Assembly (NCBI RefSeq): GCF_019448255.1
Contig: NZ_CP080410.1
Coordinates: 2,108,001-2,172,000 of the forward strand
Length of the DNA stretch: 64,000 nucleotides
DNA from: Qipengyuania flava
GTDB lineage: Bacteria; Pseudomonadota; Alphaproteobacteria; Sphingomonadales; Sphingomonadaceae
Direction of reading: 5' to 3'
In this document: in pieces, positions 9,076 to 32,412 of the stretch
Numbering within the stretch: position 1 is the first letter of the stretch
How the letters are laid out: each line of letters starts with the position of its first letter
Made by a program: the position numbers and the translations under genes
Notes under the pieces: generated by a model
Databases searched by the model: none
What the model was told of the DNA's origin: nothing
The model's input: only the letters and a program-made list of their open reading frames with translations

Positions 9076-10100
9076 TACGGCTTCACCACGCCGTGTTCGA
9101 TGAGGCTGCGTCCGCAATCGACGATGCTTTCTTCCTCGCTGCGGGTCTTCCAGCCGAGCCGCTCGAGCGCATGGCTCGCATCGACATGGCGGCTCTTGCC
9201 AAGCTCGCTCTTGATCGAGCGCACGCCCGCGTTGAACAGGCTGAGGACGGAGACCATCCAGTTGGGCATCACCTTGGTCGGCACCTTCTTCGTATGCTCG
9301 GCCGGCAGGCCGCGGCGCAGCGCCTCGCCCACTTCGATCATCCTGTAGAACTTGCCCGCGGCCAGGAACCGCTCACCCGCCAGCCCCGACTCTTCCAGGC
9401 ACCGCACATGCAGGTCCGCCACATCGCGCGTGTCGACGATGGCAAAACCGAGGTCAGGCGCCATCGGCATCGACCCGTTGAGCAATTGCTTCACCGCCTC
9501 GACCGAGGGGCTGAAGTCGGGATCGTCGACCGGGCCCAGCACCATCGCCGGGTTGACCGAGACGAATTCCATATCCCCGCCCTCGGCCGCCATCCAGTCG
9601 CGCGCGGCGCGCTCGGCGATGGTCTTCGACTTGACGTAAGGATAGACATCGGGGTGGCTGACATCGGTCCAGTCGCTCTCGTCGACGGTGTATTCCTTCT
9701 CGCTGCGGCCATAGGCGACCGCGGCCATGGAGCTCGTCTGGACGAAGCGTTTGACGCCCGCATCCCGCGCAAAGCGCAGCGCCCGCAGCGTGCCTTCGCG
9801 CGCGGGCACGATCATCTCGTTCTCGTCCTTGGGCGTGGAGGCCGCGATGGGCGAGGCGACATGCGCCACATGCGTGCAACCCGCGACCGCTTCGGCCCAG
9901 CCATCGTCGCTCATCAGCTCGGCCTCGAAGACCTTGAAACGGTCCTCGCCCGGATCGCCGACGCGGCTGCGCAGCAGCGCTTCGCTCTTCGCCTTGTTGC
10001 GGACGGTCGCATGGACGGTCCAGCCTTTCGCCAAGAGCTGGCGAATGAGCTCGCCTGCGATATAGCCCGTGCCCCCGGTTACCAGTACAGTGCCAGCCAT
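9075..10100 (-). CDS. NAD-dependent epimerase/dehydratase, dihydroflavonol reductase-like
   Basis: Extended SDR of 341 residues. Its Rossmann site VLVTGGTGYIAGELIRQL, the TSSMAAVAYG serine motif and the YPYVKSKTIAE catalytic Tyr/Lys place it with dihydroflavonol 4-reductase-like NADPH aldehyde or ketone reductases. The substrate is not deducible. It is the first gene of a two-gene unit with the SDR at 8353 and is divergent from the FAD oxidoreductase at 10175. The ATG at 10100 directly precedes the Rossmann motif, and upstream codons in the same frame belong to the divergent promoter region. Confidence 0.85.
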   Translation of the reverse strand: MAGTVLVTGGTGYIAGELIRQLLAKGWTVHATVRNKAKSEALLRSRVGDPGEDRFKVFEAELMSDDGWAEAVAGCTHVAHVASPIAASTPKDENEMIVPAREGTLRALRFARDAGVKRFVQTSSMAAVAYGRSEKEYTVDESDWTDVSHPDVYPYVKSKTIAERAARDWMAAEGGDMEFVSVNPAMVLGPVDDPDFSPSVEAVKQLLNGSMPMAPDLGFAIVDTRDVADLHVRCLEESGLAGERFLAAGKFYRMIEVGEALRRGLPAEHTKKVPTKVMPNWMVSVLSLFNAGVRSIKSELGKSRHVDASHALERLGWKTRSEEESIVDCGRSLIEHGVVKP

Positions 10101-21314: not shown

Positions 21315-22231
21315 GCGAAAGCGAAACCACCACGCGCTGCGGCGTTGTTGCCGTGCTGGGCGCGCCCAATGCGGGCAAGAGCACGCTGGTCAACCAGCTC
21401 GTCGGCCAGAAGGTCGCCATCACCTCGGCCAAGGCGCAGACCACCCGCGCCCGGATGATGGGCATCGCGCTGCACGAAAGCGCCGATGCGAACACGCAAA
21501 TGATCCTCGTCGACACGCCGGGCATCTTCGCGCCCAAGCGCCGCCTCGACCGCGCAATGGTGAGCGCGGCCTGGGAAGGCGCGGAAGCCGCCGACGCCGT
21601 GCTGTTGCTGGTCGATCCGGTGAAGCAGCGCCGCCACGAGCTCGAACCGCTGCTCGAACAGGTCGCCACGCGGCCCGAGCGCAAGATCCTCGTCCTCAAC
21701 AAGGTCGATGTGGCCAAGAAGGAGCCGCTGCTGGTCCTCGCGCAGGAGCTCACCGGCAAGGTCGATTTCGCCGAGGTCTACTTCGTCTCCGCGCTGACGG
21801 GTGACGGGGTTGCGGAAATGAAGGACGCGCTCGCCGCCCTCATGCCCGAAGGCCCGTGGATGTACCCCGAAGACCAGGTTTCGGACGCGAGCGAGCGCCT
21901 GCTCGCCACCGAGATCACCCGCGAACAGCTCTACAAGCAGCTTCACGAGGAACTGCCCTACGACAGCGCGGTGCGCCCGGAGAAGTACCTCCAGCGCCCC
22001 GACGGCAGCGTCGAGATCCACCAGCAGATCGTGGTCATGCGCGACAACCAGCGTGCCATCGTGCTCGGCAAGGGCGGTAGCCGCATCAAGGCCATCGGCG
22101 AAGCCGCGCGCAAGGAACTGACCGAGCTGCTCGGCCAGAAGGTCCACCTCTTCCTCCACGTGAAAACCGACGAACGCTGGAGCGAGGACAAGGAGATGTT
22201 CGAAGAAATGGGCCTCGACTGGGTGAAGTGA
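21311..22231 (+). CDS. era: GTPase Era
   Basis: Essential GTPase (306 residues) that binds 16S rRNA and helps mature the small ribosomal subunit. The G domain shows GAPNAGKST (G1), VDTPG (G3) and NKVD (G4). The KH RNA-binding domain in the last 90 residues includes VLGKGGSRIKAIGEAARKEL. The start is GTG at 21311, which overlaps the rnc stop as GTGA. No recO follows, unlike many genomes; recO is at 6509 in this window. Confidence 0.94.
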   Translation: MSESETTTRCGVVAVLGAPNAGKSTLVNQLVGQKVAITSAKAQTTRARMMGIALHESADANTQMILVDTPGIFAPKRRLDRAMVSAAWEGAEAADAVLLLVDPVKQRRHELEPLLEQVATRPERKILVLNKVDVAKKEPLLVLAQELTGKVDFAEVYFVSALTGDGVAEMKDALAALMPEGPWMYPEDQVSDASERLLATEITREQLYKQLHEELPYDSAVRPEKYLQRPDGSVEIHQQIVVMRDNQRAIVLGKGGSRIKAIGEAARKELTELLGQKVHLFLHVKTDERWSEDKEMFEEMGLDWVK

Positions 22232-22244
22232 TACAGCGGCGCTG

Positions 22245-23498
22245 ATGGACTGGACGGCGCAGGCAGGACAGCTGGGGGCAGCGCTGGCGATCGGGCTGAT
22301 GATCGGGCTTGAGCGCGGCTGGACCTTGCGCAAGGCCGAAGACGGCACGCGGGTGGCCGGCATCCGCACTTTCACCCTTTTCGCGCTGGTCGCGGGGCTT
22401 GCCGGGCTGCTGGCGCAGGCGGGGCAGGAGGTGGTGGCCGGGATCATCGTGGCCGGGGCGACCGCCATCGCGGCCATCGGCTATTCGCGCTCCATCACCG
22501 ATAGCGGAAAGCCCGATGCGACTTCGGCCGTGGCGGCCATGGTGACGCTGGCGCTGGGCTTCCTTGCCGGTCTTGGGCAAGCGGCGGTCGCGGTCGCGGG
22601 CGGCGCTGTGGTCACGGCCATCCTTGCGCTGCGCACCGAGGTCCACCGTTTCGTCGGGCGGCTCGACGAGGCCGATATCAAGGCGCTGGCGCGCTATGCC
22701 GTGATCGCGCTCGCCGTGTTCCCCTTCCTGCCCGAGGGGCGCTACGGCCCCTACGACGCGTGGGAGCCGCGCACCTTGTGGCTGGTGGTGATCATCGTCA
22801 CCGGCTTCAGCTTCATCGGCTACGCCGCCAACCGGATGTTCGGCGCGCGGCGCGGGACCATCGCCACGGCGGTGATCGGCGGGGCCTACAGCTCGACCGC
22901 GGTCACCCATTCCTTCGCCCAGCGGATCGGGGCCGGAGCGGGCGGCGGGGCCGAGAACGCCGGCATCGCTCTGGCGAGCGCGGTGATGTACCTGCGGGTC
23001 ATCATCCTCGTCGCCGTGCTTGCAACCAGCCTGCTGCCTCATTTCGTGCTCATCGTCGCGCCTGCACTGCTTGTCGGGTTCGGTGTCGCCTGGTGGCTTT
23101 TCCGCAAGGCACCCAGCGGCACCGGGGCGGCACCGCCGGGCAACCCCATCGCGATGCTGCCTGCGCTCACCTTCGTCACTTTCGTGGCCGTTGCCGCCGT
23201 GGCCGCCCGCTGGGCCGAAACGCGCTTTGGCGAGGAAGGGATCGCGGTGCTCCTGCTGCTGATGGGCAGCATGGACGTTGATGCCGCCATCGTCACCGCA
23301 GGCGGGTTGGAGCCGGGTACCATCTCCCCCGAGTTGGCCGCACTGGCCATAGCCGGGACAATCCTTGCCAACATGAGCGTGAAGCTCGGCGTGACGTTGG
23401 TTTACGGCAAGCGCGCCGCCCGTCCGGCCGCCGCAGCACTGGCCGCCAGCATGGCCGCGCTCGCCGCCAGCCTCATTGCGGGGTACCTAGCGCTCTGA
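22245..23498 (+). CDS. MgtC/SapB family membrane protein with DUF4010
   Basis: Polytopic membrane protein of 417 residues. The N-terminal third resembles MgtC/SapB proteins (LAIGLMIGLERGW and GIRTFTLFALVAGLAG), and the C-terminal two thirds are a DUF4010-like membrane domain, with about twelve helices in all. Function is unknown; MgtC proteins are linked to growth in low magnesium. It starts 13 bases after era and could be co-transcribed. Its last 12 bases overlap the end of the convergent CPBP gene. Confidence 0.8.
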   Translation: MDWTAQAGQLGAALAIGLMIGLERGWTLRKAEDGTRVAGIRTFTLFALVAGLAGLLAQAGQEVVAGIIVAGATAIAAIGYSRSITDSGKPDATSAVAAMVTLALGFLAGLGQAAVAVAGGAVVTAILALRTEVHRFVGRLDEADIKALARYAVIALAVFPFLPEGRYGPYDAWEPRTLWLVVIIVTGFSFIGYAANRMFGARRGTIATAVIGGAYSSTAVTHSFAQRIGAGAGGGAENAGIALASAVMYLRVIILVAVLATSLLPHFVLIVAPALLVGFGVAWWLFRKAPSGTGAAPPGNPIAMLPALTFVTFVAVAAVAARWAETRFGEEGIAVLLLLMGSMDVDAAIVTAGGLEPGTISPELAALAIAGTILANMSVKLGVTLVYGKRAARPAAAALAASMAALAASLIAGYLAL

Positions 23499-24455
23499 CG
23501 CCTGCTGCGGCTGTCCCGGATCCACGCCGATATCGTGCCCGCGATCCTCGCCAAGCCATTTCGCCACCAGCTTGATCGCCACGAAGGCCGCCGCGAGCGC
23601 AGGCAGGACGAGCACGCTGTTCTCCGGCCCGAAATCGCCGCCGCTCAGCCATTCGGGCCCGACGGGTTTCACGAGGATGATCGAGGCCATGTCGTTGCCG
23701 CTCGCGTTGTAATCGAGGACCACGCCCTGGAAGAAGTTCCAGCCCACGTGCATCCCGAAGGACAGCCAGATCGCGTTGGTCACCATCACGCCGTAAAGCG
23801 CCTTGAAGGAGAAGGCGACGATGATGAGCGAGGACAGCATGGTCGCGTTGGGGTTGGTGATGTGGATGAAGCCGAAAATCACGCCCGAGACGATGGCCGC
23901 GATCAGGAAGCTCGTCCCCTCGGCAAGGTTGCGCAGGAAATAGCCGCGAAAGAAGAGCTCTTCCCACCAGCTCACCACAACGGTCATGAAGAAGAACAGG
24001 CCAAGCGTGCCCCAGTTCATCGCGTCGAGCGAGGCGGAAAAGGCCGGCCAGGAGGCGAAATCGGGAGCGCCCTGCCCCCAGGCGATCCCGTGGAATTCCA
24101 CTACGCCGAACAACCAGGCAAGGGCGACGAAAATCCCCGCCATCATCCCGCTGATGAGGAACCCGGCAACAATGATCGGCAAGGTCTTCGCGTTGATGCC
24201 CAGGCCCAGGGACACGAGCGAGCGGCGGTCGAGGAAGCGGCGCGCAAGGATCACCGCAACGGTCATGGAAACCGCCATCATCACGATCAGGAGCGCGGTG
24301 TTCACATAGCGGCTCGCATCGGGAATCCCGCCGTTCCACCACTTGAGACCCGATTGCAGGCCAAGGTTGAGGGCCACGACAAGCGCCACCATCAGCAGGA
24401 GGCGCCACCCGGCGCGCAAACGCTCTTCCTGCGTGTTCAAGAACCAGCTCTTCAC
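23487..24455 (-). CDS. CPBP family intramembrane metalloprotease
   Basis: Membrane protein of 322 residues with eight or so helices. The family signature EExxxR is present as WWEELFFRGYF (Glu165, Glu166, Arg170). The second and third motifs contribute FIHITNPN and FGMHVGWNFFQG with the expected His residues. CPBP members are abortive-infection or prenyl-processing-type proteases, with substrates mostly unknown. The promoter region at 24511-24545 is unusually AT-rich. The gene overlaps the convergent DUF4010 gene by 12 bases. Confidence 0.85.
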   Translation of the reverse strand: MKSWFLNTQEERLRAGWRLLLMVALVVALNLGLQSGLKWWNGGIPDASRYVNTALLIVMMAVSMTVAVILARRFLDRRSLVSLGLGINAKTLPIIVAGFLISGMMAGIFVALAWLFGVVEFHGIAWGQGAPDFASWPAFSASLDAMNWGTLGLFFFMTVVVSWWEELFFRGYFLRNLAEGTSFLIAAIVSGVIFGFIHITNPNATMLSSLIIVAFSFKALYGVMVTNAIWLSFGMHVGWNFFQGVVLDYNASGNDMASIILVKPVGPEWLSGGDFGPENSVLVLPALAAAFVAIKLVAKWLGEDRGHDIGVDPGQPQQASER

Positions 24456-24510
24456 CAGACGATCTCCCGTTCAGGCTCGCGTGATGGCGAGCCATTCGGG
24501 ATGGCCTAGT

Positions 24511-24545
24511 GTATTATATCGGCGATACAGTCAAGATATATCGTA
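24511..24545 (-). promoter_or_regulatory. AT-rich promoter with palindromes before the CPBP gene
   Basis: Minus-strand TATAAT (24513-24518) is a perfect -10 about 58 bases before the CPBP start. It overlaps TATCG-G-CGATA (24517-24527), and a second palindrome GATATATC lies at 24535-24542. The composition is unlike the surrounding sequence, and two symmetric sites around a -10 suggest a repressor. No regulator gene is adjacent. Confidence 0.45.
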
Positions 24546-24551
24546 AGGTCG

Positions 24552-24923
24552 TCAGCTTGCGTCGGTGACGACCATCGTTTCTCCGTCGATCGAGCACGTA
24601 CCCGATACGCTGACGGCCGGATCGTCCCACTCGACCTCCCACCCGATAGCCGGATCGTCGTCCGACAGGCTGTCTTCGACGATCGAGACGGCGGCGTTGG
24701 GCAGGTCCTTGAAGCGCTCGTCCTCGAACCAGACCTTGTCGTGGCACGCCTGCGCGGCCGCGACGGTCGCCTCGTCGTACTCGCCTGAGACCTCCGGAGC
24801 CTCCGCCGGAGCGGCTTCGGCGGTTTCGGCCTCGGCTGCAGGAGGGTCCTCGCTGGCGGGCTGGCTGCAGGCAGCCGCGAGGGCCAGGGCCGGAAGGGCT
24901 GCGTAAAGTGTGAGCAGCTTCAT
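24552..24923 (-). CDS. Small acidic lipoprotein, unknown function
   Basis: Protein of 123 residues with a lipoprotein signal (LPALALAAAC, lipobox Cys at residue 19). A Pro/Ala/Glu-rich linker covers about residues 20-48. The acidic remainder contains two Cys residues (in QACHDK and SGTCSIDG) that could form a disulfide. No family is recognised. Its ATG overlaps the stop of the DUF805 gene (ATGA), so it is the second gene of a coupled pair. Confidence 0.7.
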   Translation of the reverse strand: MKLLTLYAALPALALAAACSQPASEDPPAAEAETAEAAPAEAPEVSGEYDEATVAAAQACHDKVWFEDERFKDLPNAAVSIVEDSLSDDDPAIGWEVEWDDPAVSVSGTCSIDGETMVVTDAS

Positions 24924-25282
24924 GCGGCGTCTCCCTCTTTGCTTGGCTGGACGTAGAAATAGAGCAGCACCAGGTTCACGAACGGGATAAGCCCGATCAG
25001 CAGCAACCAGGGCGAATAGCCCGCATCGCGCAGGCGCCGCAAGGCGACCGCTATGCTGGGGATGACGGTGGCAAGCGCGTAGAGAAAACTCAGCGGCCGC
25101 GACGTATCGTCAACCGTGGTATCGATGCCCAGAGCCGGATTGACGACAAAATTGTCGAGCAGGCCGAGCACAACGAAGATGAGGAACTGGGCAAGGACCC
25201 AGTACCAGAACTGCGGCCGCGAGGCGCGCCCGTGAAAGTTGGTGTAATTCGCGATCCCGTCGCGCCAGGCTTCGACAACCAT
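24920..25282 (-). CDS. DUF805 domain-containing membrane protein
   Basis: Inner-membrane protein of 120 residues in the DUF805 family, function unknown. Typical wording includes YTNFHGRASRPQFWYWVL at the N-terminus, then IAVALRRLRDAGYSPWLLL and a final hydrophobic helix ending in YFYVQPS. Three to four helices are predicted. The ATG at 25282 is chosen because GGGGAGGAG precedes it and the family starts close to this point; another ATG 30 bases upstream is possible. The stop overlaps the start of a lipoprotein gene. Confidence 0.82.
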   Translation of the reverse strand: MVVEAWRDGIANYTNFHGRASRPQFWYWVLAQFLIFVVLGLLDNFVVNPALGIDTTVDDTSRPLSFLYALATVIPSIAVALRRLRDAGYSPWLLLIGLIPFVNLVLLYFYVQPSKEGDAA

Positions 25283-25432
25283 GCTCCACTCCTCCCCATG
25301 AGTCGGGTGCAATCATCTCAAAAACCGCCGATTTTGTCACGTCGGGCTCCCGAGAGGTGGCAGCGCCACGCCGTTTGACGACCCGCCCGTGCCGTTCGCA
25401 GAGCAAGTCTCGCACCGCGCACACAGCCTTAT

Positions 25433-25448
25433 GATTACGTGTGTAGTC
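25433..25448 (+). promoter_or_regulatory. BlaI/MecI-like operator candidate
   Basis: GATTACGTGTGTAGTC is a near-perfect palindrome (GATTAC / GTAGTC, one mismatch) that resembles the BlaI/MecI operator core TACAnnTGTA. It lies 16 bases before the start of a beta-lactamase-fold serine hydrolase. The window has no BlaI gene, so the match is only suggestive. Confidence 0.35.
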
Positions 25449-25463
25449 AATACGGAGACTGTC

Positions 25464-26627
25464 ATGCGTAGCCTTATCCTGCCCGCTCTTGCCCCTGCCC
25501 TTGCCCTCGCCCTTGCACCTCCCGCCCTTGCCGCCAGCGAACCCACCCAGACAGCGTCCGAAATACGCGGCCCCGGCGATCTCGACCGTGCCGAACTGCT
25601 TGGCGAGGTGGAGGCGATCCTGGCCAAGCATGCCGTCCCCGGAGCGCATGTGACGCTCACCATGGGGCCCGACATCGTCCTGTCCCGCGCGTTCGGCACC
25701 GATCCTTCGGCGGGCGGAGCGCCTTACACCGAACAGACCCCGGCCCGCCTCGCCTCGGCCAGCAAGCTGCTGACCGCGCTGACGGTCCTGTCGATGGTGG
25801 AAGAAGGGACGCTGTCGCTCGACGAGACACTCGGCTCGCTCGACGCCGACCTGCCCGCGCATTGGCACGCCATCCCGATCTGGCGGGTGCTCAACCACAC
25901 CTCCGGCATCCCGATGATAGTCACGCGCGAGGATTTCAACGCGCTCTCGCAGGAAGAGCAGCTCGCGCTCACCCCGGCGGACCTGCTGGCCATGATCGGC
26001 TCCGAGCCGCTCGACTTCGCGCCGGGCGAAGGCTGGCATTACCAGCAGGGGGCCTATGCCCTGCTGACGCGCAGCCTCGAAAAGCGCACCGGCATGGCCT
26101 GGACCGACCTGGTCGCGCAGCATGTGACGGGCCCAACCGCCATGGCCAGCACGGGTTTCGCCCCGCTTGCCCAGCAGGCCGCGGCCTATGAGATCAAGGA
26201 TGGCGAGCTCGTCCAGCGCCCCGGCGTCTACCCCGCCATCTTCGCAGCCGCCGGCGGGATCGATACGACGCCGGCCGATGCAGCCGGTCTGCTCCTGGGC
26301 CTGTCGCAAGGCCGTATCCTGACCGAAGAAACGCTGCGCCACGTCGCGCTCGATGCCGAGCGGCTCCACCGCCTCGGCCGCGATGTCGAGGGCGAAGGCT
26401 ATGGCCTTGCCATGGTCGTCCAGCGCTTCGGCGACCTCACCTTCTTCGGCCACAGCGGCGGCGGGGGCCTTGCCGATATCCGCTACGCGCCGGGTCGCCA
26501 GCTCGGCATTGCCGTCCTGACCAATCGCGCGGGCGGAACAGGAGCGGCGACCGAAATCGCCGACCTGATCGCGACACGGCTGGTCGGTGACGCCCACCGC
26601 ACGCCGCGCGCGGCAACGGGAAGCTGA
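25464..26627 (+). CDS. Exported serine hydrolase, beta-lactamase class C fold
   Basis: Periplasmic or secreted protein of 387 residues. The signal peptide runs to about residue 24 (ending PPALAAS). The active-site SxxK is Ser98-Ala-Ser-Lys101. The second motif, usually YxN, is replaced by YQQGAY, and HSGGGG stands in place of KTG, as in many esterase or peptidase relatives. NHTSGIP is a family block. It is likely an esterase, D-aminopeptidase or carboxypeptidase rather than a true beta-lactamase; substrate unknown. The ATG at 25464 is set by the signal peptide. Confidence 0.8.
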   Translation: MRSLILPALAPALALALAPPALAASEPTQTASEIRGPGDLDRAELLGEVEAILAKHAVPGAHVTLTMGPDIVLSRAFGTDPSAGGAPYTEQTPARLASASKLLTALTVLSMVEEGTLSLDETLGSLDADLPAHWHAIPIWRVLNHTSGIPMIVTREDFNALSQEEQLALTPADLLAMIGSEPLDFAPGEGWHYQQGAYALLTRSLEKRTGMAWTDLVAQHVTGPTAMASTGFAPLAQQAAAYEIKDGELVQRPGVYPAIFAAAGGIDTTPADAAGLLLGLSQGRILTEETLRHVALDAERLHRLGRDVEGEGYGLAMVVQRFGDLTFFGHSGGGGLADIRYAPGRQLGIAVLTNRAGGTGAATEIADLIATRLVGDAHRTPRAATGS

Positions 26628-26732
26628 AGCGCTGACGGGTGTCTAGTGCAGGCAGGCTAGCACCCCTGCCCGATCCCGCCGGTTTCCGGAGCGGTCTAGT
26701 TCCAAAGTCCTCAACACCAAGGAGGACTAGCA

Positions 26733-26900
26733 ATGACCGAACTGAACACCTTCGAAATGGCTGCCGTGAGCGGCGGCACCGGCGACATCTTCAGCGAGCT
26801 GGAAGAGCGCTTCCCGGGCGGCGTCTGGTACAACGGCAGCTTCTATCCGAACGGCCTGCCCGACATGACCGATCCGCTCCGCGGCACCGAGCCCTGGTAA
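26733..26900 (+). CDS. Small double-glycine-leader peptide (bacteriocin-like precursor)
   Basis: Short gene of 55 residues with a strong ribosome site, AAGGAGG (26719-26725). The N-terminus MTELNTFEMAAVSGG matches the double-glycine leader pattern: Glu at -8, Met at -7, Val at -4, and Gly-Gly at -2/-1. Cleavage would release a 40-residue, Cys-free peptide rich in Gly, Pro and aromatic residues, with VWYNGSFYPNGLPD in its middle. A hairpin terminator follows at once. Such leaders are cut by PCAT-type ABC exporters, but none is in this window. A bacteriocin, signal peptide or RiPP precursor is inferred; no modifying enzyme is adjacent. Confidence 0.6.
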   Translation: MTELNTFEMAAVSGGTGDIFSELEERFPGGVWYNGSFYPNGLPDMTDPLRGTEPW

Positions 26901-26908
26901 GAAACGAA

Positions 26909-26943
26909 GGGGCGCCGGCCGGAGTAGCGGCGCCCCCTCTTTC
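26909..26943. terminator. Hairpin terminator after the leader peptide
   Basis: GGGGCGCC (26909-26916) and GGCGCCCC (26929-26936) form a perfect 8-base stem with a 12-base loop, followed by CTCTTT. It sits nine bases after the small peptide stop and in front of the convergent topA stop, so it can serve the plus strand. Confidence 0.6.
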
Positions 26944-26951
26944 CCCAAGCC

Positions 26952-29522
26952 TTACTTGGCCGCGGCCTTCTTGGTCGCGGCTTTTTTCTTGGCTGCGGGC
27001 TTCTTTGCCGCTGCCTTCTTCTTGGCCGGAGCCTTCTTGCGCGCGGTCTTCTTCTTGGCCGGGCCCTTAGCCACGCGCGCATCGATCAGCTCGATCGCCT
27101 GCGCTTCGGTCACGTCTTCGGGCTTCACGTCCTTGGGGATCGTCGCGTTGGTCGTGCCGTCGGTGACATAGGGGCCGTAGCGGCCCGGCATGACCTTCAT
27201 CTCGCCCCCGCTGGTCGGGTGTGCGCCGAGCGTCTTGATCGGCTCCGCCTTGCCGCGCCCCCCGCCCTTGCGGTTGGCCGCTTCGGCCAGCAGCGAGACC
27301 GCCGCGTTCATGCCGGTGTCGAACACATCGCGCGTGCTCTGCAGCTTGGCGTATTTACCATCGTGGCGCAGGTACGGGCCGTAACGTCCGATAGCCGCTT
27401 CGATTTCCTTGCCCGTTTCCGGATGCGCGCCGACGATGCGCGGCAGGCCGAGGAGCTTCAGCGCCCATTCGAGATCGAAATCGTCGAGGTCCTTGGGAAT
27501 GCTCGCGCGCTTGGCGTCCTTGCCCTCGCCCAGCTGGACATAGGGGCCGAAACGGCCGCTCTTGCGCTCCACCGGGAGGCCGGTTTCCGGATCCTCGCCC
27601 ATGACGCCGTCATCGGCACCGTCATCGCCCTGCCCGCCTGGCTTGGCGAACTGGCGGGTGTACTTGCACTCCGGATAATTCGCGCAGGCGACGAACGCGC
27701 CATAGCGGCCACCGCGCAGCGCCAGTCGGCCGCCCTCGCGCCCTTCGGTTTCGCACAGCGGGCAATGGCGCGGGTTCTTGCCGTCGGCCCGTTCGGGGAA
27801 GAGATAATCGGCCAGGAAGTCGTCGAGCACCTCGGTCACTTCGGAGGGCTTCTTGTCCATGACCTCTTCGGTCTTGGGCTTGAAATCGCGCCAGAAGGCT
27901 TCGAGCAGCTTCTTCCAGTTTTCCTTGCCATCGGAGACCACGTCGAGCTCGTCCTCGAGCCCGGCGGTGTAGTCGAAGGCGACGTATTGCGGGAAGAAGC
28001 GTTCGAGGAAGGCGGTCAGCAGGCGGCCCGATTCCTCAGCGTGGAAGCGGCTCTTTTCCATCCGCACATAGGCGCGGTCGCGCAGCGTCTGGATGGTGCT
28101 GGCGTAGGTCGAGGGGCGGCCGATGCCGAGCTCTTCCAGCCGCTTGACCAGGCTCGCTTCGGAGAAACGCGGCGGCGGTTGGGTGAAGTGCTGGTTCGCC
28201 TCGACCCCGGTCTTCAGCGGGCTGTCACCCTTGGAGATGGTGGGCAGCAGGCCCTCTTCATCGTCTTCCGGATCGTCGCGGCCTTCCTGGTAGACGGCGA
28301 GGAAGCCCGGATATTTCACCACCTGGCCGGTCGCGCGCAGCTCGTGCTGGCCGGTCGGATCGCGCAGGGTGATCGTCGTGCGTTCAAGGCTGGCGGCGGC
28401 CATCTGGCTGGCCATCGCGCGCTTGAAGACGAGGTCGTAGAGCTTACCCTCGTCACCCGAACCGGCGCGGTCGCGGGAGAAGTCGGTCGGGCGGATTGCC
28501 TCGTGGGCTTCCTGCGCGTTCTTCGCCTTCGTCTTGTACATGCGCGGGCTGTCGGGAAGCGCGTGGCCGCCGTAGCGGTCCGCCACGGCCTTGCGGCAGG
28601 CGGCAATCGCGCTGCCGTCCATGCTCACCCCGTCGGTACGCATGTAGGTGATCGCGCCCGCTTCGTAGAGCGACTGCGCCAGCCGCATGGTGTGGCTGGC
28701 GGAAAAGCCCAGCTTGCGCGCGGCTTCCTGCTGCAGGGTAGAGGTGGTGAACGGCGGCGCGGGGTTGCGCTTGAAGGGCTTGGTCTCGACCTCCTCGACC
28801 GTGAAGCGCGCATCCTCGACCGCCTTCTGCGCGGCCTTGGCGCTGCCTTCGTTGCCGAGAGTGAGCTTCTCGAGCTTCTTCCCGTCGTACTTTACCAGCC
28901 GCGCATCGAAACCGGTGCCGTCGTGCTGCAGCTTGGCGATGACCGACCAGTATTCGTCGGCGCGGAAATGCTCGATCTCGATCTCGCGGTCGACGATCAG
29001 GCGCAGCGCGACCGACTGGACACGCCCTGCGCTCTTGGCGCCCGGCAGGCGGCGCCACAGCACCGGCGACAGGGTGAAGCCATAGAGATAATCCAGCGCG
29101 CGGCGGGCGAGGTAGGCGTCGATCAAATCCTGGTCGAGCTCGCGCGGAGCCTTCATCGCATCGGTGACGGCCTGCTTGGTGATCGCGTTGAAGGTCACGC
29201 GGTCGACCTCGGCGGGCAGCGCCTTGCGCTTTTGCAGCAGCTCGCGAACGTGCCACGAAATCGCCTCCCCCTCGCGGTCGGGGTCGGTGGCGAGCACGAG
29301 CCGGTCGGCCTTCTTCGCGTTATCGGCGATTTCCTTGAAGCGCTTCTGCTTGTCCCGGTAGAGCTCCCAATCCATTTCGAAGCCTTCGTCCGGGCGCACG
29401 CTGCCATCCTTGGGCGGCAGGTCGCGGACGTGACCGTAGCTGGCGAGAACCTTGAAGTCCTTGCCGAGGTATTTCTCGATGGTTTTCGCCTTTGCAGGCG
29501 ATTCGACGATGACCAGTTGCAT
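26952..29522 (-). CDS. topA: DNA topoisomerase I
   Basis: Type IA topoisomerase (856 residues) that relaxes negative supercoils. The Toprim domain begins with LVIVESPAKAKTIEKYLG. The catalytic Tyr is in AITYMRTDGVSM near residue 300. A C4 zinc-ribbon-like segment (CPLCETEG to CANYPEC) lies near residue 590, followed by further Toprim-associated repeats of the form GRYGPYV. The last 45 residues are Lys/Ala-rich, a common alphaproteobacterial DNA-binding tail. It is the last gene of plsY-dprA-topA, 261 bases after dprA, and has its own promoter candidate. Confidence 0.95.
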   Translation of the reverse strand: MQLVIVESPAKAKTIEKYLGKDFKVLASYGHVRDLPPKDGSVRPDEGFEMDWELYRDKQKRFKEIADNAKKADRLVLATDPDREGEAISWHVRELLQKRKALPAEVDRVTFNAITKQAVTDAMKAPRELDQDLIDAYLARRALDYLYGFTLSPVLWRRLPGAKSAGRVQSVALRLIVDREIEIEHFRADEYWSVIAKLQHDGTGFDARLVKYDGKKLEKLTLGNEGSAKAAQKAVEDARFTVEEVETKPFKRNPAPPFTTSTLQQEAARKLGFSASHTMRLAQSLYEAGAITYMRTDGVSMDGSAIAACRKAVADRYGGHALPDSPRMYKTKAKNAQEAHEAIRPTDFSRDRAGSGDEGKLYDLVFKRAMASQMAAASLERTTITLRDPTGQHELRATGQVVKYPGFLAVYQEGRDDPEDDEEGLLPTISKGDSPLKTGVEANQHFTQPPPRFSEASLVKRLEELGIGRPSTYASTIQTLRDRAYVRMEKSRFHAEESGRLLTAFLERFFPQYVAFDYTAGLEDELDVVSDGKENWKKLLEAFWRDFKPKTEEVMDKKPSEVTEVLDDFLADYLFPERADGKNPRHCPLCETEGREGGRLALRGGRYGAFVACANYPECKYTRQFAKPGGQGDDGADDGVMGEDPETGLPVERKSGRFGPYVQLGEGKDAKRASIPKDLDDFDLEWALKLLGLPRIVGAHPETGKEIEAAIGRYGPYLRHDGKYAKLQSTRDVFDTGMNAAVSLLAEAANRKGGGRGKAEPIKTLGAHPTSGGEMKVMPGRYGPYVTDGTTNATIPKDVKPEDVTEAQAIELIDARVAKGPAKKKTARKKAPAKKKAAAKKPAAKKKAATKKAAAK

Positions 29523-29567
29523 GGGGGTGTTTGCAGTCCCTTACGTGTGCGTATGCGTATACGCGCG

Positions 29568-29597
29568 AAAATGGGGACCGGTCCCAAAGCACGTCAA
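29568..29597 (-). promoter_or_regulatory. topA promoter with a 12-base palindrome in the spacer
   Basis: On the minus strand, TTGACG (29592-29597) and CATTTT (29568-29573) are separated by 18 bases. That spacer contains the perfect palindrome GGGACCGGTCCC (29574-29585). The topA start is 46 bases from the -10. A regulator or supercoiling-sensitive spacer is possible. Confidence 0.45.
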
Positions 29598-29694
29598 GCG
29601 GCAAAAAAGGAGCGGGCCGCCCGTATTAGGAGGTACGAAGGCGGCCCGCCGCGAGCGCCTGTTGGGGGGCCCGCTTTACGATCTGAGGGGTAAA

Positions 29695-29766
29695 GAAGCG
29701 CGCGAATCGGCGCTTCTCACGGCGCAAACCATAAAGCGTGGCGGGCCTGCGCATTGCATCAATGCG
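29695..29766 (-). terminator. Two hairpins downstream of dprA
   Basis: CGCATTG-CAT-CAATGCG (29750-29766) and GAAGCGC/GCGCTTC (29695-29716, 8-base loop) are perfect stems. On the minus strand the second is followed by TTTACC. They probably end or attenuate dprA transcription before topA. The rest of the 261-base gap shows only the topA promoter. Confidence 0.4.
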
Positions 29767-29783
29767 TCAGTTTTGGAGGTTTT

Positions 29784-30893
29784 CTAGCTTGCGAGGCTCA
29801 CCCTGCCGCCGGCGTGGCGTTCCAGCCGGCCGGCGATGTCCAGTTCGAGGAGCGCCATTTGCACGGCCCCTGCGCTGGCGCCAGACTGGCGGATGAGTTC
29901 GTCCACTGCGACGGGCGCAGCGGTGAGCAGGCCGGCGATATCGGCAGGCCCGGCCTCAGCCAACTCCTCCGGTTCGAAGTCGAAGGCCTCGGCGGTTTCG
30001 CGGAAGGTCGAGCGCGGCAGGCCGTCGAAGCCGCTCAGCAGTTCGGCGACGTCCTCCACCGATTGCACCAGGACCGCGCCTTCGCGGATCAGGTGGTTGC
30101 AACCGTGGCTGCGCGGCTCGAGCGGGCTGCCGGGGATAGCCATGACCTCGCGCCCCGCCTCGCCCGCCAGCCGCGCGGTGATGAGGCTGCCCGACTTGAC
30201 CGCCGCTTCCACCACCAGCGTCCCGCTGGCGAGGCCTGCGATGATCCGGTTGCGGCTGGGAAAGTGGCTGCCGCGCGGTTCGGTGCCCGGCGGCTGTTCG
30301 GCCAGCAAAAGGCCTTCGCTGGCGATGCGCTCCTGCAGCTCTGCGTGCTGGGGTGGATAGGCGATGTCGATACCGCTCGCGATCACGCCGATCGTCTGCG
30401 GAAAGGCGCCTTCATGCGCCGCCCCGTCGATCCCGCGCGCCAGGCCCGAGACCACGGTGAAGCCCGCTTCTGCCAGCCCCACGGCAAAGTCGCGCGCCAG
30501 CTTCACCGCCGCCGCACTCGCATTGCGCGCGCCGACCGTGGCGACGCAGGGCCTTGCCGCCAGCGACAGGTCGCCCCGCCAGGTCAGGATCGGCGGCGCG
30601 CCTTCGATCTGGCCGAGCAGCGCGGGATAATCCGGCTGGTCGTGGAAGAGATATTTCGCCCCTGCCTTGCGCACCGCTTCCACCTCGCGCTCGATCCGCT
30701 CGGCCGCCACGGCGCGGTAGCTGCGCCCGCCTCGCTTGCCGAGATCGGGCAGCGCTTCGAGCGCCTCGGCCGCCGTGCCGAAGCGCTGCAACAGCATGGC
30801 GTAGGTGACCGGCCCGATGTTGGGCGAGCGCAGCAGGCGGATGCGCGCGAAAGCCTCGTCCTGCGAAAGCACCTGCGGAGCGGGAGCGTGCAC
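29784..30893 (-). CDS. dprA: DNA-processing protein DprA
   Basis: Protein of 369 residues that loads RecA on incoming single-stranded DNA in transformation. The Rossmann-like core shows VGARNASAAAVKLARDFA, TVVSGLARGIDGAAHEGA, GSHFPSRNRIIAGLA and EVMAIPGSPLEPRSHGCN. A helical domain precedes it, and a C-terminal winged-helix part ends the protein. The start is GTG at 30893, four bases after the plsY stop. Presence of dprA does not by itself show natural competence. Confidence 0.93.
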   Translation of the reverse strand: MHAPAPQVLSQDEAFARIRLLRSPNIGPVTYAMLLQRFGTAAEALEALPDLGKRGGRSYRAVAAERIEREVEAVRKAGAKYLFHDQPDYPALLGQIEGAPPILTWRGDLSLAARPCVATVGARNASAAAVKLARDFAVGLAEAGFTVVSGLARGIDGAAHEGAFPQTIGVIASGIDIAYPPQHAELQERIASEGLLLAEQPPGTEPRGSHFPSRNRIIAGLASGTLVVEAAVKSGSLITARLAGEAGREVMAIPGSPLEPRSHGCNHLIREGAVLVQSVEDVAELLSGFDGLPRSTFRETAEAFDFEPEELAEAGPADIAGLLTAAPVAVDELIRQSGASAGAVQMALLELDIAGRLERHAGGRVSLAS

Positions 30894-30897
30894 CCGC

Positions 30898-31503
30898 TCA
30901 GCTCTCCTTCGAGCCGCCGACCTTCGGTTCGGTTCCGGCCATCAGCCGCGTGATGTTTTCGCGGTGCAGCCAGATCACCAGCACGGCGATGATGGTCATG
31001 ACCTTCCACCAGGTCGGTTCGCCCAGCGCATAGGCGGCAATGGCCGCGCCCACGACCGCGCTCATCCCCGCAAGCGAGGAAATGCGGGTGATGGCCAGCA
31101 TCGCGATCCAGACCGCCGCGTAGGCAAGCCCGATGGGCCAGGCGAGGCCGAAGGCGACGCCCGCGTTGGTGGCGACGCCCTTGCCGCCCTTGAAGCCGAG
31201 CCAGACGGGGAAGCAGTGCCCGATGACGGCGAACAGCGCGGTCCAGCCGGCATCCTGCCAGAACAGCTCCTTGGCGATCAGCACGGGCACGAGGCCCTTG
31301 GCGAGGTCGAGCAGCAGGGTGGCGGCGGCCAGCCCCTTGCTGCCGGTGCGCAGCACGTTGGTCGCGCCGATGTTGCCGCTGCCGATGGAACGGATGTCGC
31401 CCTTGCCCCCGATCCTGGCAATCAGCAGGCCAAAGGGCACCGAGCCGAAAGCGTAGCCGAGCAATGCGGCGTAGAGCACGGTAATGGTCAGTTCGGTCGG
31501 CAC
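30898..31503 (-). CDS. plsY: Acyl-phosphate glycerol-3-phosphate acyltransferase PlsY
   Basis: Inner-membrane enzyme of 201 residues making lysophosphatidic acid from acyl phosphate and glycerol 3-phosphate, the first step of phospholipid synthesis. The three motifs are visible: IRSIGSGNIGATNVLR, IGHCFPVWLGFKGGKGVAT and LHRENITRLMAGTE. Five to six helices are predicted. The start is GTG at 31503 after GAGGGGA, giving the normal family length; longer versions would add a hydrophilic extension unlike PlsY. It is the first gene of plsY-dprA-topA and divergent from murI. Confidence 0.93.
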   Translation of the reverse strand: MPTELTITVLYAALLGYAFGSVPFGLLIARIGGKGDIRSIGSGNIGATNVLRTGSKGLAAATLLLDLAKGLVPVLIAKELFWQDAGWTALFAVIGHCFPVWLGFKGGKGVATNAGVAFGLAWPIGLAYAAVWIAMLAITRISSLAGMSAVVGAAIAAYALGEPTWWKVMTIIAVLVIWLHRENITRLMAGTEPKVGGSKES

Positions 31504-31617
31504 GGCGTTCCCCTCGCGTTGGGCCAGCAACCTTGTCGCAGGCTCGCTTTTGCGTTTTAGCGGCCTAGTAGATGGACCGGCCTGCGGGCAAGGTCGAGTC
31601 GCACCGAAAGGACCGCC

Positions 31618-32412
31618 GTGAACTCTTCTTCCCCCATCCTGCTGTTCGATTCCGGTGTCGGCGGACTGACAGTGCTGGGCGAAGTGCGCGCCGCGCTGCC
31701 GCAAGCGCCGGTGATCTACGCCGCCGACATGGCGGGCCTGCCCTATGGCACGAAGAGCGAGGCGGAGGTCGCCGCGCGCGTCGCCGGCCTCTTGGGCCGC
31801 ATGGCCGAACGTTACCAGCCGCGGCTGATCTGCATCGCCTGCAACACGGCGAGCACGATTGCGCTCGGCATGGTGCGCGAGGTGCTGGAAACCCCGATTG
31901 TGGGCACCGTCCCGGCGATCAAGCCCGCTGCAGCGCTAACCGAGACCGGCGTGTTCGGCCTGCTCGGCACCGAGGCGACGATGCGCCAGAAATACGTCGA
32001 CGACCTCGAACACGCCTTTGCCGTGGGCAAGCGCCTGCTGCGCCACGGCGCGAACGACCTCGTCCCGCTCGCCGAAGCCAAGCTGCGCGGCGAGCGTGTG
32101 AGCATTGATGCCGTGGCCGAGGCGGCGAAGGGCCTGGTTCTGCAGGAACACGGGCGCGAAATGGATACCATCGTCCTTGCCTGCACCCACTTCCCGCTGC
32201 TCGAGGACGAACTGCGCGAAGCCTATGGCGCGGACATGCGCTTCGTCCACGGAGCCGAGGGCATCGCCCGGCGCATCGCCTCGCTGACCGAAGGGCAGGA
32301 CTTCGAGCGAAGTGGCCCCGACCGCGCCATCACCACCGGCGAGCTAGAGGATTTCGAGCGGCTCGCACCGGCCTTCGCCCGCTACGGCCTCGACCGGCTG
32401 GAAAAGTTCTAG
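31618..32412 (+). CDS. murI: Glutamate racemase
   Basis: Cofactor-independent racemase of 264 residues supplying D-glutamate for peptidoglycan. FDSGVGGLTVL is the N-terminal signature. The two catalytic cysteines are Cys75 (ICIACNTAST) and one near 185 (LACTHFPLL). The start is GTG at 31618 after AAAGGA. The next gene begins eight bases later, so murI probably leads a unit that runs on to hemA. Confidence 0.94.
   Translation: MNSSSPILLFDSGVGGLTVLGEVRAALPQAPVIYAADMAGLPYGTKSEAEVAARVAGLLGRMAERYQPRLICIACNTASTIALGMVREVLETPIVGTVPAIKPAAALTETGVFGLLGTEATMRQKYVDDLEHAFAVGKRLLRHGANDLVPLAEAKLRGERVSIDAVAEAAKGLVLQEHGREMDTIVLACTHFPLLEDELREAYGADMRFVHGAEGIARRIASLTEGQDFERSGPDRAITTGELEDFERLAPAFARYGLDRLEKF

Follow-up and report, generated by a model that had tools for sequence, protein, structure and literature searches.

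A dispersed double-glycine peptide gene of Qipengyuania flava and its probable partner, a distant PCAT exporter

Class II microcins of the MccV type combine a double-glycine (GG) leader with a C39 exporter and an HlyD partner. The peptide gene described here lies in a 64,000-nucleotide stretch of the Qipengyuania flava genome (the window), and two peptides encoded at a distant exporter locus match MccV weakly, under its cut-off. The window gene differs from such microcins in that its protein has no match in Pfam at E <= 1 and that no immunity gene was recognized beside it in a by-eye reading of the ORF list of 22000-32000, which could overlook a small unrecognized one.

PCAT/GG-peptide systems with substrate pools common to several exporters are known, and the substrates of ComAB, BlpAB, and RtgAB resemble the window peptide in having a leader that ends in GG and is hydrophobic at positions -15, -12, -7, and -4 and in being co-regulated with their exporter, as the window gene may be (PMC7018657, in part). 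Unlike in these systems, the organism is an alphaproteobacterium, a CHASE2 kinase and a LuxR-type regulator are encoded beside the exporter, and the gene lies far off. The contact-dependent bacteriocin system Cdz of Caulobacter (CdzABCDI) is likewise alphaproteobacterial and pairs a type I exporter with small glycine-zipper peptides, a likeness that concerns the exporter-locus peptides, whereas a glycine zipper is absent from the window core and no immunity gene was recognized next to the window gene (PMC5380434, in part). The terms "two-component," "Sphingo," and "Erythrobacter" do not occur in the main text of that paper. In Synechococcus, several small GG proteins (EbfG1-4) depend on one C39 transporter (PteB), and EbfG serves biofilm formation; the likeness was drawn without a comparison of cores, and the description of EbfG/PteB, as far as it is drawn on here, shows no CHASE2/LuxR pair or CTAG element (PMC4997328, in part). 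Among open-licence PubMed Central papers, none was found that describes a CHASE2/LuxR-controlled PCAT regulon, a phased CTAG element, or an era-topA peptide family.

The original prediction had placed an unlisted 55-residue gene with a double-glycine leader at the locus, preceded by a strong ribosome site. The open reading frame, its homologues, and their dN/dS values confirm that this gene is real, and its anatomy is as follows.

26733-26900, plus strand: 55-codon precursor gene (stop codon 26898-26900), backed by homologues and dN/dS
26733-26777, plus strand: leader MTELNTFEMAAVSGG, 15 residues, with predicted cleavage after Gly15
26778-26897, plus strand: core TGDIFSELEERFPGGVWYNGSFYPNGLPDMTDPLRGTEPW, 40 residues, with the family motif RxPxGxWxxxxxxPNGxP (13 intact copies aligned)
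26719-26725, plus strand: Shine-Dalgarno sequence AAGGAGG, 7 nt 5' of the ATG
26643-26660, plus strand: promoter element CTAG-N10-CTAG, 72 nt upstream of the ATG, one of 10 exact sites genome-wide
26667-26674, plus strand: downstream box TGCCCGAT (YGNCCNAT), 6 nt past the second CTAG
26909-26936, plus strand: GC hairpin 3' of the stop codon, a possible terminator with a weak U-tail

The translation agrees with the predicted leader, which ends in GG and has Val at -4 and Glu at -8, and with a Cys-free core of 40 residues. The PCAT signal consists of hydrophobic residues at -4, -7, -12, and -15 and a GG, GA, or GS end (PMC7018657, in part), and the window leader, with V, M, L, and M at these positions, has the pattern of a PCAT substrate. 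A strict filter (ATG, Shine-Dalgarno sequence, 30-100 aa, GG-leader pattern), which was composed after the ORF had already been seen, retained one ORF in the 64-kb window and none in any of 60 windows simulated with an order-2 Markov model. The NCBIfam model bacteriocin_sig (TIGR01847) scored the window protein at 15.2 bits, near its cut-off of 15.7, and the locus including its frame neighbors at 16.8 bits; in a whole-genome scan, only the window locus was listed at E <= 10, with an E value of 0.18 and 15.4 bits.

A terminator right after the gene had also been proposed. The hairpin is present, with GC arms of 9 bp (26909-26917 and 26928-26936) and an MFE of -25 kcal/mol (z -2.1), but a terminator is plausible rather than clear because its U-tail is weak and the hairpin is missing from the output of a consensus terminator scan. 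The gene is flanked by a serine-hydrolase-like ORF (25389-26627, plus strand) and a convergent topA (26952-29522, minus strand); these names, as well as era, tesB, and cysN below, are readings of translations and not family tests. Beside the gene, no RiPP modification enzyme was recognized by eye among the ORFs of 22000-32000, in line with the original prediction; one may be encoded at a distance.

Conservation was followed in relatives, which are designated by G numbers (G000 is the source genome), with L numbers for the stretches of loci that were read. The window protein alone as a query against genome contigs gave no confirmed relative. A first relatives search returned five matches, among them one in G055 that lies antisense inside a 372-aa ORF; G042, with one in-frame TGA, was left out. 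An alignment of three copies (A1) was then used to search 60 genomes of the genus and found the intact peptide in G000, G036, G069, G075, and G077 as well as a copy in G002 that has lost its GG; matches in G010, G006, G083, G012, and G082 were dropped (E 0.05-0.07). A family draw of 397 genomes yielded 10 matches at E <= 0.001, spread over 7 of 96 genera, all of which were used except one in G136 (E 6e-4) with an in-frame TGA. The resulting intact set comprises 13 copies from 12 genomes, i.e., the five of the genus and G414 (two copies), G124, G269, G214, G464, G109, and G203.

All 13 intact copies keep GG or GA at the leader end and have the core motif in common. The gene order era-peptide-topA was found in 12 of the 13 genomes read (11 of the 12 with an intact copy and G002 with its decayed one), with neither era nor topA in the 12-kb stretch around the peptide of G464. 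Among G036, G069, G075, and G077, five of the six pairs have dN/dS values of 0.12-0.19, and the sixth differs by two nonsynonymous changes only. Constraint on the peptide is thus shown for the relatives but not for the G000 branch, because pairs with G000 give values of about 1.0.

The absence of an exporter beside the gene, as originally predicted, finds its complement in a whole-genome search for Peptidase_C39, which detected a single gene (G000:C1:463997-466123) about 1.67 Mb from the window gene, with C39 (PF03412, E 1.2e-30), ABC_membrane, and ABC_tran domains. It is accompanied by genes for an HlyD protein, a GerE (LuxR-type) response regulator, and a CHASE2 histidine kinase, and by six small GG/GA-leader genes (L008:9513-12124, corresponding to G000:C1:467513-470124). 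The genome has at least eight short-leader GG/GA genes, two of them located away from the exporter: the window gene and MKILDTKEIASVGGA... (L050:1606-1836; G000:C1:1071837-1072067), which has a glycine-rich core and was found via the promoter element. A leader model built from all eight G000 leaders (A2: the six from the exporter locus and those of the window gene and of the gene at 1071837) recovered these at E <= 0.009, by construction, so that only the absence of a further good match is informative (the next, at E 0.99, lies inside a 296-aa frame). Leader similarity alone does not prove a link between peptide and exporter, since a model built on 16 foreign leaders picked up four leaders of the exporter locus but not that of the window gene.

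Among the 60 genus genomes, an exporter of >=85% identity is present in G000, G036, G069, G075, and G077. All five of these have the intact peptide and none of the other 55 does (5/5 against 0/55), a comparison that is confined to the genus, ignores relatedness, and involves five carriers that may be one clade. More distant C39 exporters occur without the peptide in G023 (52%), G061 (50%), and G024 (44%, plus a 52% fragment). In G002, only PCAT fragments are left between tesB and cysN (L205:9294-10126), the site of the full locus in G036, and kinase, regulator, and HlyD were not found at this old locus. The peptide copy of the same genome (L040:6234-6416) reads LNVATFD where G036 has LTVAGGN, so that ATF replaces AGG, and it has no ATG, with TTG as its only start. 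Peptide and exporter have decayed together in this genome; counting against the explanation favored below, G002 keeps the CTAG element and a long-leader GG peptide despite the lost exporter.

These data bear on a rival reading in which the GG is fortuitous and the small protein either works within the cell or exits by another route. The distance of the gene from the exporter and the failure of the foreign-leader model to find its leader would suit such a reading, but the retention of GG or GA in every intact copy, the coincidence with the exporter, and the loss of GG where the exporter is lost make it very improbable. The original proposal of an orphan precursor served from elsewhere is supported by the sole C39 exporter, the co-occurrence, the joint loss in G002, and a rare promoter element that the gene and the exporter locus have in common.

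This element, CTAG-N10-CTAG, was first spotted by eye at the window gene and the exporter. The window has a single copy, while shuffling produced at least one in 12 of 100 trials, and its exact form has 10 sites in the 2.85-Mb genome. Four of them are at the exporter locus, 81-116 nt upstream of three of its peptide genes, one lies 87 nt upstream of the second dispersed peptide, and one 75 nt upstream of the Cys-rich gene of a long-leader GG-peptide operon (L044:687-1425, near G000:C1:423418), in which a Cys-rich gene with a weak DUF2387 match (E 0.044) is followed by the peptide gene. In G036, G069, G075, G077, and the exporter-less G002, too, the Cys-rich gene has an element upstream. Three of the 10 sites (637448, 2281044, and 2657047) have no peptide nearby, which counts against a regulon. 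The corresponding proportions in relatives are 2/5 in G036, G069, and G075 each, 1/4 in G077, and 5/6 in G002 and G061, with a site near a doubtful leader (L212) in G061 taken as lacking a peptide. The Cys-rich operon was scored as having a peptide in these counts, although only in G000, G077, and G002 did the reading extend to the GG peptide downstream, the stretches of G036, G069, and G075 ending there; the search for peptides at the other element loci used a regular expression and a Shine-Dalgarno filter that can miss genes, as it did the G077 copy.

The homologues provide an independent view, as they were picked by protein similarity irrespective of their promoters. The exact element precedes the ATG by 68-72 nt in 5 of the 13 intact copies (G000, G077, both G414 copies, and G124) and with one mismatch in G075 and G203, whereas only a lone CTAG precedes the gene in G036, G069, G269, and G214 and none in G464 and G109. 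Six of the 13 intact copies thus lack the element even at one mismatch, which counts against co-regulation, the more so as the exporter carriers G036 and G069 are among them. The CTAGs recur in 14-nt steps, and the four found within 85 nt before the window gene were matched in 10 of 5,000 random placements. The downstream box YGNCCNAT, drawn by eye from the peptide promoters and three G000 sites, matches in 6/6 letters 6 nt after the element at the window gene, 423418, 470206, and 1071732; of these, G000 423418 was kept out of its derivation, as was L110 7179, which likewise scores 6/6. The box reached <=4 at the exporter-locus peptides of G036, G075, and G077 and at the G069 and G061 peptides.

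The element is associated with the regulator in that it occurs at 7/9 exporter loci with a regulator gene (12 among 49 exporter-locus rows, nine after dropping three duplicates) and at 2/37 loci without one, a count that takes no account of relatedness and in which several of the 37 are short contigs whose regulator could sit off the end. CTAGs are also clustered beside the regulator gene in G000 and in L098. An unlikely alternative is that the element belongs to another regulator and that co-regulation with the exporter locus is indirect. This would accommodate the two regulator-less loci that have the element and the sites that G002 keeps with the regulator gone from its old locus. In addition, the element extends beyond exporter carriers, as 48 of the 60 genus genomes have at least one (median 2, mean 2.15, G000 having the highest count). 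The contrast between loci with and without the regulator and the clusters beside its gene argue against this alternative. In L098, from an uncultured Erythrobacter, five CTAG boxes stand at exact 14-nt steps (L098:5787-5846) upstream of the response regulator gene.

Taken together, it is probable, with appreciable room for doubt, that the window gene encodes a dispersed precursor co-regulated with and exported by the distant PCAT exporter. The LuxR-type regulator beside the exporter, driven by the CHASE2 kinase, would bind CTAG-N10-CTAG and switch on the peptide genes. The leader would then dock in the C39 domain of the single PCAT exporter and be cut after Gly15, and the core would leave via the PCAT-HlyD channel and an outer-membrane factor. 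The product is probably a secreted, linear 40-residue peptide. Outside the cell, its aromatic/Pro/Gly-rich core might meet a conserved partner, the most tentative step of this scheme. If this scheme holds, orphan GG precursors in Gram-negative genomes could be assigned to an exporter by promoter signature instead of neighborhood, and the CHASE2 kinase would gain testable candidate ligands and binding sites.

As to the role of the peptide, a cell-cell signal or a community or surface effector appears somewhat likelier than a killing peptide. That the mature peptide is an antibacterial effector resembling class II bacteriocins or microcins, with regulation and export as above, is possible but doubtful. 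Such a function would be in keeping with the bacteriocin_sig score close to the cut-off, with weak glycine-zipper or MccV matches in two exporter-locus peptides (L008:9513-9716 and 9772-9954), and with the killing by glycine-zipper peptides in Caulobacter (PMC5380434, in part), but the window core, conserved across genera, has no zipper by Pfam (E <= 1), unlike these two, and no immunity gene was recognized by eye beside its gene. The exporter-locus peptides as a whole include short Trp/Pro-rich peptides as well as glycine-zipper types that resemble Cdz or MccV toxins.

In nine loci, mean identity is 43.9% for the CHASE2 sensor half, 61.5% for the kinase core, 75.5% for the regulator, and 84.9% for the exporter, and the fast divergence of the sensor would fit a receptor that tracks changing ligands. 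It is nevertheless unlikely that the window peptide is the pheromone sensed by the kinase in a positive loop: kinase, regulator, exporter, and peptides are linked, and the sensor half diverges fastest, as expected of such a receptor, but conservation is seen in the window core and not in the sensor, fast divergence has other causes, and CHASE2 ligands are called unknown (PMC5192318, in part). The diverse exporter-locus peptides, these sequence comparisons suggest, suit the role of sensor ligand better, and the window peptide is for this reason favored as a conserved signal or effector whose partner stays constant.

A wider reading, which we put forward as speculative, is that of a dispersed peptide-communication regulon in Erythrobacter/Qipengyuania-type bacteria, in which the CHASE2 kinase would sense a GG peptide after its export, and the LuxR-type partner of the kinase would bind CTAG boxes in 14-nt phase and activate peptide genes at the exporter and at far sites, e.g., the era-topA interval, with the conserved window peptide as one of the targets. 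CHASE2 would then be a peptide receptor, and alphaproteobacteria would possess a peptide-based quorum circuit like those of Gram-positives.

The CHASE2 kinase of the source genome (L008:12234-14414) has a C-terminal receiver-like stretch that scores under Pfam's cut-off. Further dispersed GG-leader peptides with different cores follow a CTAG element in G069 (L187:882-1130) and G036 (L182:425-634). In G414, the era-topA peptide is duplicated in tandem (L227:1018-1221 and 1498-1677), and each copy has its own CTAG-N10-CTAG.
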